DNA from: Planctomycetota bacterium
Lineage (GTDB): Bacteria > Planctomycetota > Planctomycetia > Pirellulales > Thermoguttaceae
Assembly (NCBI GenBank): GCA_029550925.1
Contig: JAKPGL010000130.1
Span: 40,821-104,820 of the forward strand
DNA length: 64,000 bases
Direction: 5' to 3'
In this document: in pieces, positions 240-55,724 of the stretch
Position numbering within the stretch: the first letter of the stretch is position 1
Layout: every line of letters begins with the position of its first letter
The notes under the pieces: model-generated
The model's database searches: none
Told to the model about the DNA's origin: nothing
Seen by the model: the letters and a program-made list of their open reading frames with translations, nothing else
Made by a program: the position numbers and the translations under genes

Positions 240-1031
240 TTATCCGGCCCGGCGGCGGTAGAGGAGCACTAGACAGACCAGCAGGCCGACGGCGCAAAGG
301 ATTTGGTCTTTTTGGGCCTGGAACGGTCCGATGTCGGCCCGGTAGCAATCGATCTAGCACCGCAGGCTAAGCCAGAGCAGGGCGGCCCAAAGGGCGATCA
401 AGCCTGGCCGACGCACGTATCGCTGAAGCACTAGCACCGCCGCCAGCACAACCAGGGCTGTCGCCGCCAGGTAAAGCTGGGTCGGATGCACTGGTCTCGG
501 TCCAGTAAAGAGGATCGCCAGATCGTACTGGAGTTGATAAAGATGCGACAGGCTGCCGGGCGGAAATTGGACGGCCCAGGGCGCGGTGGTTTCTTTTCCG
601 AAGCAGCAACCCGCCCCATAACAGCCGAGCCGCACGATCGCCATCGCCGCTGCGGCGGCTGGGGCCAGGGCGTCGAGCATCCGCCAGGGATCCAGGCGGA
701 GCGCACGGCTGAGGGGCCATCCGACCGCTGCCGCCGCCAAGAAACCCCCCAATAGATAAAAATGGCCGAAATCCAGAATCAGAAGCTCGTTCCATGGTTT
801 GGAGAACCCGTCCGGTCGGAGCGCGCCATAGGCAATCCGGGCGCCGACCAGCATCGAGACCGTTACTGCCAGGACATACCAGGCAGCCGACCCAACCCCG
901 CCGCCTTGCCGACGCACCCCGAACCAACCTACTAAACAGAATACAAACAATCCCGCGGTGAGGGCGGCGCTATAAGTTGGCAGATTCCAACTGCCGCCTA
1001 TCCAGGGCAGTCGCAAAAGCGTAGGATACAT
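240..1031 (-). CDS. Prolipoprotein diacylglyceryl transferase (Lgt)-like membrane protein, interrupted by in-frame TAG at 354-356
   Basis: Multi-TM protein with RLGCYGAGCCFGK and HPTQLYLA motifs typical of Lgt-like proteins. The frame continues past TAG as IDCYRADIGPFQAQKDQILCAVGLLVCLVLLYRRRAG to TAA, matching the usual LRFxIExxRxD C-terminal segment. Confidence 0.75.
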
Positions 1032-24040: not shown

Positions 24041-24373
24041 ATGACGAAACCGGAAATTACGTATGACGATTTTGCGAAGTTGGACCTGCGAGTGGCGACG
24101 GTCATTTCGGCCCGGCCCCATCCGAACGCCGATAAACTGATGCTTTTGGAGATCGACGTAGGCGACCAGCGCAAACAGATCGTGGCCGGCATCCGGCAGC
24201 ACTATCAGCCGGACCAATTGGTCGGCCGACAGATCATCGTCGTCAACAACCTCCAGGAGGCGGTGCTTCGGGGAGAAGAGTCGCAAGGGATGCTCTTGGC
24301 CGCCAGCGACGGCCAACGGATCGTCCTGCTACAACCCGCCGAGCCTTGCGCCCCCGGCAGCGTGGTCAAATAG
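24041..24373 (+). CDS. Stand-alone tRNA-binding (EMAP/MetRS-beta-like) protein
   Basis: ITYDDFAKLDLRVATVISARPHPNADKLMLLEIDVGD...RQIVAGI...SQGMLLAA; ends with TAG. Confidence 0.88.
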   Translation: MTKPEITYDDFAKLDLRVATVISARPHPNADKLMLLEIDVGDQRKQIVAGIRQHYQPDQLVGRQIIVVNNLQEAVLRGEESQGMLLAASDGQRIVLLQPAEPCAPGSVVK

Positions 24374-51778: not shown

Positions 51779-53740
51779 ATGGCGATTCTCGCTCAATGCC
51801 CGTTGTGTGGGGCGTGTTTTAAGGCCCGAGACGAGTATGCGGGCAAACGGGTGAAATGCCCCCAGTGTCAGGGCGTGATTCAAATTCCCCTGCCTGAACC
51901 TTCGCCCCAGGCGGTCGTTCCGATCGCCGCGAAGAAAAGCCCCTCCGAAGGAAAATCCTCCAGGGAAACTCTAGGGGAGGAAGAATTCGTCTCCGCCTCG
52001 GATCAGGACGCCTCGGAGGTCCAAAGCGGGCCGGTTCCTGTGGTAAAACCTGCGCCGGTATTTGTCTCGACCGTTCCGCCGGTTCAACCGGCCTCTTTTT
52101 CGCCGCCTCTCCGCCCGGAAGGCAAAGCAGCGGTTCGGGGCGTTCCAGCGGTTCCTGTGTGGGCGTGGATTGTGTTGGCTTCGGCGGTGAGCGGGTTGTT
52201 AGTGGGCGCTGTGGTCTATGCCGCTTTGAAATCCTCAGGTTCGGATCAGACCAGAGGCCCCGTCGCACAGACCGAAGGGCCGAAAGCTTCCGCCAAACAG
52301 ACCCCGACCGACAAAAAAAAGCCCCAGGAGCCGTCTAGTTCTGCCGGCCAGGTCGGTCCTTCCCCGCAAACAGGACAATCGAAACCCTCCCTAACCATCC
52401 GCGAAGTCTTGGACGCCGTGGTGAAGATCGAGATGCCTGCCGGTGAGGGCAGAATGAGCATTGGCGCCGGGTTTTTCATTGATCCCCGCGGTTGGGTGGC
52501 CACCAATTACCATGTCATTTCGCAGGGCACGTCGGCGACTCGGGTTCGGCTTTTCGACGGAACCCAGTGCAAAGTAGCTGGTATTTTGGCCCAGGAACAG
52601 AGCATGGACTTGGCCATCCTGAAACTGGCCGATCCTCCTTCTCGGTTGCGGGTACTGGACATCAATTTTTCTGGAGAACCGGAATTGGGGGAGGAGATCC
52701 GAGTTTGCGGCCATCCGCACAATTTGAGTTTTACTTTTGTGGAAGGCACGGTAGGCCGGGTGGTTACCACGATGGAGCTGTTGAAAGAACGGCCCAATCC
52801 GCTGCTTTTGCAGATGAAAGCGCCCCTGGACATGATATAGATTCAGCATAGCGCCCGGATCGCCCAGGGCAATAGCGGCGGCCCGGTGGTCAATAAACAG
52901 GGACAGGTCCTAGGAATCAATTCCTTTGTCAATGAGCTTTCCTTTGGGTATGCGATTCCGGTGCGATATTTGCGGGCCTTGATGGCGTTGTGCAACGACA
53001 GCCAAGTTACGCCGTTGCCGGACCAACTTCCTTCTCAGCCGTCGGCCAAGCCGAAGGAGTCGCCGGGGCCTTCGCAGCCGCCTCCGTCGGCGGAGCCGTC
53101 CCCAGAGTCTCCCCCGACGCCCAAAGAAGCGCCCCCGTCCCAACCTCCGCCTCAACAGCCGCCCGCGCCTCCTCCGCCGCGTCCGGGCGGTGTGGGCCTG
53201 TCGCCGGAGGAACTCCAAAAGCTTTACGACGCCTGTTGCCAGTTCTTTTGGAAACCGGAGACGGCGGAACAATATAACACCCTACAACTCTTTGCCCGGG
53301 TGGTTTCCATCGTGAAACACATTCAAGCCCATCCCGAAGCCGCTCCTCAAGCGCCAAAAGAGGCCGTGGCCGCCTGCGCCCAAAAGGCCGACCAACTGAT
53401 CGCCGAACTCCAGAAATCTCCATGGACAAAAGAACATTGGCAAAAAATCCACGCCCAGGCCGCCAACCAACTCCAGCCGGATCAAGGCGCCCTCCTGCAG
53501 GGCAGCGTCGTGATGAACGCTGAACAAATCCGCGCCAATCAGCCTGCTATTCTTTTGGCCGCCGAGGGGATCGATCGAAAACTCCTCCTCTTGGTCAGTC
53601 AAGACCATGCGAAACTGCCCATCTCCACCAAGCTATGGTTTATTGGCCGCGTGGTCGGGACGGCCCAACTGAGCAACAACCAAGGCCAATCCGAAACCTG
53701 CCCCTTGATCCAAGTCGCCTATCTGATCAAAGAAGAGTAG
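51779..53740 (+). CDS. Zinc-ribbon/TM/S1C (HtrA-like) trypsin protease, interrupted by in-frame TAG at 52838-52840
   Basis: AQCPLCGACFKARDEYAGKRVKCPQC; GAGFFIDPRGWVATNYHVI (His), MDLAILKL (Asp), then after TAG, IQHSARIAQGNSGGPVVNKQGQVLGINSF (Ser). Both segments share one frame. Confidence 0.85.
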
Positions 53741-53856: not shown

Positions 53857-54555
53857 CTAAGGGGTGCAGACTGCCTGCCCCATCCGTACGGCTTCGACCA
53901 GATCATGAACCGCCGCTTCCAAACGCCGAAAAGATCGCATCTTCTGCCGAACCAGACTTAAATCCACCAGCTCTGCCAGCTTCGCCTGATCCCGAGGCGG
54001 GTTGTAGCCGGTAGGAATCTTTTGCCTTATCCAACCCTTCGCATCCCGGGGCGACGTTTCTGGATCCGCCGGAATCTCCTGAGGTAGTTTGGAAACTACA
54101 ATCCGGCCATCCGGAAAGCGTTTTCCTACCAATGAGTCGGCTGCGGCAATGAACCAGGATTCAAATTCTTTACAAGCGAACACCACGGCCACAGAAAACT
54201 GGCTGCCAGCACCAACTCGTTGCGCTTCCTTAGCAAGCATCCGGGCTGCTCGCATCGCACAAAAATCCTCCCCCTCCACCGGCCCACGGCCATCCCAAAG
54301 AAAATCGCTATCGCCATCCAACAGAAGAAGGGCAGCGCCAAAGTCCTTCCGTGTTTTGGCAACTTTCAAATAACGATGCCAATCAGCAAATTGATTTTTG
54401 CAAACTTTGCTATACCCTCCTACTCGGATTGGAAATTCGTCGAGAATGATCACGTCGAAAGCGGCCTGTTGTGCCAGGAGGCGTTTGACCAGCACGCACG
54501 TCGCCTCTGCGTCGCCGTGGCCTTCGACCATCAGCACAAGCCGCTTCCGACTCAT
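53857..54555 (-). CDS. DUF4276 family protein (Toprim-like)
   Basis: LMVEGHGDAEATCVLVKRLL, LLLLDGDSDF, ACKEFESWFIAA. Confidence 0.75.
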   Translation of the reverse strand: MSRKRLVLMVEGHGDAEATCVLVKRLLAQQAAFDVIILDEFPIRVGGYSKVCKNQFADWHRYLKVAKTRKDFGAALLLLDGDSDFLWDGRGPVEGEDFCAMRAARMLAKEAQRVGAGSQFSVAVVFACKEFESWFIAAADSLVGKRFPDGRIVVSKLPQEIPADPETSPRDAKGWIRQKIPTGYNPPRDQAKLAELVDLSLVRQKMRSFRRLEAAVHDLVEAVRMGQAVCTP

Positions 54556-55724
54556 CCGGCCGTCTCCACCTCGCCAGCCGCCATTCGAGGAGTCTCTACC
54601 GTAAACAGTTCGCCGGGATGCAACAACTGTTCACGCAAAGCCTCCCGTTGATCCTGGGCCAGGGGACCTATCCGAGTCTCCAAATCCACCAACTCCACCA
54701 CCCGGATCTGCTCGTCGGAAAACTCGTCCAGAAGCATAGGGCTGTGCGTGGTCAGCAGCACCTGCCCCCGGCCCGCATCCGGCGCCGCTTTGAACTCACC
54801 ACCCAGTAGCTTTAATGCGGCCGGATAAATCCCATTCTCCGGCTCCTCAAAAACAAGCGTTTGCTTCGAAGGCTTCTGATACAGGGCAAGCAGGTGGGCA
54901 AAGAACCGACGAAAACCGTCCGACTCCTGATCCAAGTCCAAAGGCAAAATTTTCTCTCCCAACCGATGGCCAACAATCACTCGCTGCGGTTGTTGAATAG
55001 AATTCGGCTGGATGGTGGCGATGGTGGGATTGAGACACTGAAGGGTAGCTACCATCGCCTTCGGCGTCTCGATGTCCTGCAGATCGGTAAGGAGTTGCCG
55101 AAGAACCTGGAGATAATTTTCGCCTTTGTCGGCCAACCCGAAGTTAGAAGAGACAGTTTCGCTTTTTCGGAGCACGTCATAGGGGAAATTATACACGCCG
55201 ATTCCGGCCGTCAGTGCCGTATACGCTAGCACTGCTTCCTCCAAACCCGGCAGTCGGCCCAAAGCCAACGCTCCAGGCTCAGGAGGCGATATTAAAGAAG
55301 GAGGGACCTGCCAGATGACAGAAGGAGAGACCTGCAGGGGCGAGGAGCTTGGGGGGCGGGGCTTCGCTTGGGAAAAAATTATCTTTTGCCCTGTTTCTGT
55401 TTCGCAACTCAACTCTTCCAAGAGAAGATAGTCCCTCTCAGAGCTCAATCGTAATGTGTAATGAAAAGGGGTATTCATTCCGGAAATGGTAAATTCTACA
55501 CTAAACTCGGGGGGCCCCTTGGGATTCGTAGCACAGCGCCAATTTTGTTGGTTGGCGTATGGGGGAACTCCTCCTTGGATTAGGTAATCTCGCAGAAACC
55601 GGATGGCGGAGACGAAGTTGGTTTTTCCCGTGCCGCTTTTGCCGATAAACACGGTAACCGGCGAGAGTTCCACGGTTACGTCCCGAAGACTTTTGAAATT
55701 TTGGATCCTGATACGGTGGATCAT
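54552..55724 (-). CDS. AAA family ATPase (AAA15/21, RecF/OLD-like)
   Basis: IRIQNFKSLRDVTVELSPVTVFIGKSGTGKTNFVSAIRFL; LVFEEPENGIYPAAL; QVLLTTHSPMLLDEF. Confidence 0.9.
   Translation of the reverse strand: MIHRIRIQNFKSLRDVTVELSPVTVFIGKSGTGKTNFVSAIRFLRDYLIQGGVPPYANQQNWRCATNPKGPPEFSVEFTISGMNTPFHYTLRLSSERDYLLLEELSCETETGQKIIFSQAKPRPPSSSPLQVSPSVIWQVPPSLISPPEPGALALGRLPGLEEAVLAYTALTAGIGVYNFPYDVLRKSETVSSNFGLADKGENYLQVLRQLLTDLQDIETPKAMVATLQCLNPTIATIQPNSIQQPQRVIVGHRLGEKILPLDLDQESDGFRRFFAHLLALYQKPSKQTLVFEEPENGIYPAALKLLGGEFKAAPDAGRGQVLLTTHSPMLLDEFSDEQIRVVELVDLETRIGPLAQDQREALREQLLHPGELFTVETPRMAAGEVETAG

Follow-up and report, generated by a model that had tools for sequence, protein, structure and literature searches.

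In bacteria, one known reassignment of a stop codon to tryptophan concerns UGA (UGA = Trp, translation table 4). A second related phenomenon is represented by isolated nonsense codons within bacterial genes. Such in-frame stops are reported to be widespread and generally short-lived, on the scale of population polymorphism; genes carrying them still show dN/dS <1, and readthrough was suggested for part of them (Belinky et al. 2021, PMC7918605). The trypsin-like serine protease gene described here resembles these genes in its single stop, intact frame and signature of purifying selection. The published set consists of stops common to at least two species, whereas the protease stop was seen in one genome only. 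Its likeness to the UGA reassignment lies in the occurrence of a stop codon at Trp positions; here, however, UAG takes the place of UGA, no more than two cases were seen, release factor 1 (RF1) remains intact, and none of the 45 tRNAs found in the genome matches.

The genome is a draft metagenome-assembled genome (MAG) of a hot-spring planctomycete (Thermoguttaceae) in 233 contigs, with estimated completeness of 97.5% and contamination of 2.97%. The window, i.e., the whole 64,000-nucleotide stretch analyzed, lies on a 104.8-kb contig, which carries both TAG-bearing genes. Comparison was made with two genomes of the same genus (G001 and G002) and with more distant relatives (G009, G006 and loci L008–L013).

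Translation of positions 51779–53740 (plus strand) gives 654 codons with a single internal TAG at 52838–52840, as the earlier note had described. The N-terminal part (51779–52837) includes a Cys-rich zinc-ribbon-like start and a probable transmembrane segment (both recognized by eye), followed by a protease domain with His (TNYHV) and Asp (MDLAIL) and without Ser (Pfam Trypsin_2, 7.1e-15, model positions 1–108). The downstream part (52841–53737) remains open in the same frame for 299 codons up to the natural stop TAG (53738–53740). It contains the catalytic serine motif GNSGGP (52868–52885, beginning 27 bases past the internal TAG), the end of the protease domain (Trypsin_2 model positions 119–144, the latter being the model end, together with a Trypsin match), a Pro-rich linker and a C-terminal region. 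Since the Trypsin_2 match continues across the TAG, this is one protease domain cut between Asp and Ser, and termination precedes the catalytic Ser, in agreement with the earlier reading. The assignment to S1C (HtrA/Deg) proteases holds in part: the trypsin-like His-Asp-Ser domain is present over both parts, with Ser only after the TAG, but a Pfam search of both parts gave no PDZ match, which makes the label a loose one. The first ATG, GTG or TTG 3' of the internal TAG is GTG 52886, directly beyond GNSGGP; re-initiation there cannot restore the Ser motif, and the essential part of the enzyme is lost without a bypass from a common start codon. Beside the protease gene, on the minus strand (53857–55724), an AAA_21 ATPase is followed by a DUF4276 protein, neighbors that we take to resemble a defense-type pair.

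Intact, stop-free orthologs of the protease (PF13365/PF00089, with GNSGGP) are found in both same-genus genomes (G001 contig C42, 79% identity; G002 contig C220, 76%; values for the protease domain). They are of similar length and have the same Trp-Ile pair before the Ser motif, the Trp codon (TGG: WIQHSARIAPGNSGGP) standing where the studied copy has TAG. The codon alignment and the DNA alignment both give TGG at 52838–52840 in G001, G002, G009 and G006, and Trp occupies this site also in several more distant relatives (L008–L013). The sense codon of the relatives is one substitution away from TAG, and the orthologue alignments contain no relative sharing the stop. Compared with these relatives, the protease TAG differs by a single G-to-A change from the codon of a conserved Trp (TGG>TAG).

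The sequence past the stop retains the marks of a constrained gene. For the region after the TAG, dN/dS is 0.156 against G001 (285 codons) and 0.144 against G002 (283 codons), which, with dS above 1 and thus saturated, is largely a record of the period preceding the stop; the intact sister pair, G001 against G002, gives 0.149 for the same region. Relaxed selection, which would mark an old pseudogene rather than a recent allele, is not seen past the stop at this dN/dS of about 0.15, and the aligned codons contain no further lesions. Of the protease codons, 58 follow the stop and 137 precede it; residues private to the studied genome number 12 and 19, respectively, and since this genome is more divergent than either of the other two, we read no clear relaxation from these counts. 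Constraint equal to that of the sister pair means that the stop either arose recently or is an error of the consensus, or else, as the least likely case, that it is read through. By these comparisons, the protease gene is not an old pseudogene.

A second case in the window, also reported earlier, proved real: a TAG at 356–354 on the minus strand within the PF01790 frame of an Lgt-like gene (alignment RC*IDCYRAD / RIWIDCYRAD). This short Lgt-like paralogue (258–995, minus strand) is present in the genome beside a canonical Lgt, which is intact on contig C228. G002 is the only relative found to have the paralogue, with TGG (Trp) at the site; in G001, the match is to the distant canonical Lgt only. 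Judging by the alignment with G002, the Lgt-like TAG is an independent TGG>TAG change of the same kind as that in the protease gene. In both genes the TAG is followed by Ile, as the earlier note had pointed out, but this shared context is accounted for by a Trp-Ile pair that each of the two proteins conserves. In the studied genome, 5.5% of Trp codons precede Ile; at this frequency, meeting the pair twice is a modest coincidence, and one spotted in hindsight.

An excess of TAG over TAA and TGA was sought in about 30% of the genome (a 1.48 Mb sample, some loci overlapping, against 0.73 Mb of G001, of which about 200 kb could be aligned) and in family scans of the whole genome. No excess was found, the outcome that the earlier note had named beforehand as contradicting its proposal. 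At conserved Trp codons in pairs with G001 of at least 60% identity, TGG occurs 932 times and TAG never; the protease (58% identity over its length) adds a single Trp>TAG to this comparison. The five families scanned (ABC_tran, 45 matches; GFO_IDH_MocA, 78, of which 55 listed; SBP_bac_10, 65; Sulfatase, 16; Pkinase, 25) gave 229 matches, and the 206 listed included a single internal TAA but not one TAG. At C38:204–629, an internal TAA interrupts a DUF1559/SBP_bac_10 copy, and two adjacent partial copies at C88:21026–21879 suggest a frameshift. When 1.39 Mb was scanned by coding potential for stops flanked by coding sequence, 15 candidates came up (8 TAA, 5 TGA and 2 TAG). Most of the others appear on inspection to be neighboring genes sharing a frame, e.g., the TAG in L104 followed by MKLIIAY (a GlnB-like start). 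Several internal stops in tblastn matches were likewise set aside by inspection as leaders, antisense frames or low-identity tails.

In G001 itself, a lone in-frame TAA replaces a conserved Gln codon (L192:3884) within an otherwise intact aligned frame of 524 amino acids, in a gene that by eye reads like an outer-membrane efflux protein. This Gln>TAA lesion shows that such lesions are a background not specific to TAG. Lone nonsense codons are thus infrequent and not confined to one kind of stop, and TAG does not stand out among them. Under a simple substitution model with an assumed transition weight of 3, TGG>TAG is expected to make up about 11% of nonsense changes; two such cases in 64 kb are somewhat above expectation.

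The locus is probably best explained by a recent nonsense allele, or by a strain variant captured by the MAG consensus, in a protease with intact paralogues. A single G-to-A change would have turned the conserved TGG into TAG. Translation would then stop after codon 353, leaving half a protease domain without the catalytic Ser and hence an inactive product, and the Lgt-like gene would have undergone an independent change of the same kind. Loss could be tolerated owing to intact relatives in the genome: the second Lgt and nine further protease-domain matches elsewhere, the listed ones of which are without stops. The allele would accordingly be a true one, its product inactive and its loss permitted by redundancy. 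This recent or segregating mutation is the simplest account, with MAG error ranked second and readthrough third.

An error of sequencing, assembly or consensus, or a mixture of strains in the MAG, the real or majority base giving TGG, is an unlikely account of the stop, though the one that ranks closest behind. It agrees with unrelaxed constraint past the protease stop and with the draft state of the assembly (its many contigs and estimated contamination). It agrees also with a foreign-looking extra release factor: a second RF1-type copy, diverged from the genus copies, occupies a 1.8-kb contig (L077, C80:1–1827) and is probably MAG contamination. However, error would have to produce two independent single-base changes on the same contig, and by inspection no other in-gene stop of the studied genome occurs in the approximately 200 kb aligned with G001.

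Inefficient natural UAG readthrough by a near-cognate tRNA is less probable again. It would yield some full-length protease, with expression lowered by the TAG, and could be favored by the intact, constrained frame downstream and by the readthrough proposed for conserved bacterial in-frame stops (PMC7918605). Against it, the stop occurs in no relative found, so that neither it nor its context is conserved as in programmed readthrough, and the constraint, measured at saturated dS, mostly predates the stop. The decoding apparatus speaks in the same direction. Rfam recognizes 45 tRNAs in the genome, whose estimated completeness leaves a small chance of a missed one, and none of them has a CUA anticodon (0/45, ARAGORN on the loci); such a tRNA had been suggested as a target of search. 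With RF1 intact and no TAG excess, the partial suppressor or TAG-specific readthrough put forward in the earlier note finds no support. ARAGORN also lists, in the genome sample, a putative tRNA-Asn with an unusual anticodon ATT besides the normal GTT.

Low-level decoding of UAG, as Trp or another residue, that keeps a few Trp>TAG genes functional in this lineage is very unlikely. Decoding of TAG as Trp through partial or context-dependent reassignment has next to no probability, although both internal TAGs of the window align with Trp. RF1 (L073) and RF2 (L075) are complete and close to the G001 and G002 copies; the two were told apart by the established PxT-type and SPF motifs. The sole tRNA-Trp has the anticodon CCA, and its anticodon stem folds with 5 bp; a 4-bp stem widening the decoding by tRNA-Trp, an idea drawn from PMC13092985, was rejected on this basis. 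TAG terminates 193 of 761 long frames (about 25%) and 32 of 131 orthologue pairs, and within the window normal terminal TAGs were verified at 24371–24373 and 53738–53740. The earlier judgment that wholesale reassignment is unlikely is thus upheld by intact RF1, the share of genes ending in TAG and the Trp codon counts; the tRNA set, RF1 and these counts together lead us to reject TAG as Trp or a suppressor tRNA. Equally negligible is a split protease of two polypeptides assembling in trans: both halves are intact, but the stretch from the TAG to the Ser motif offers no ATG, GTG or TTG as a start, and the product of GTG 52886 would exclude GNSGGP.

Both TAGs have the appearance of commonplace nonsense mutations of recent date, or of errors in the draft assembly, rather than of a novel genetic code or a system for readthrough. 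UAG readthrough in this organism, if true, would be a new case of natural suppression. The locus serves mainly as a caution, since a pair of lone stops in a draft assembly can mimic recoding and nevertheless be ordinary; most of the recoding question is settled by the tRNA set, the release factors and the comparison with two congeners.
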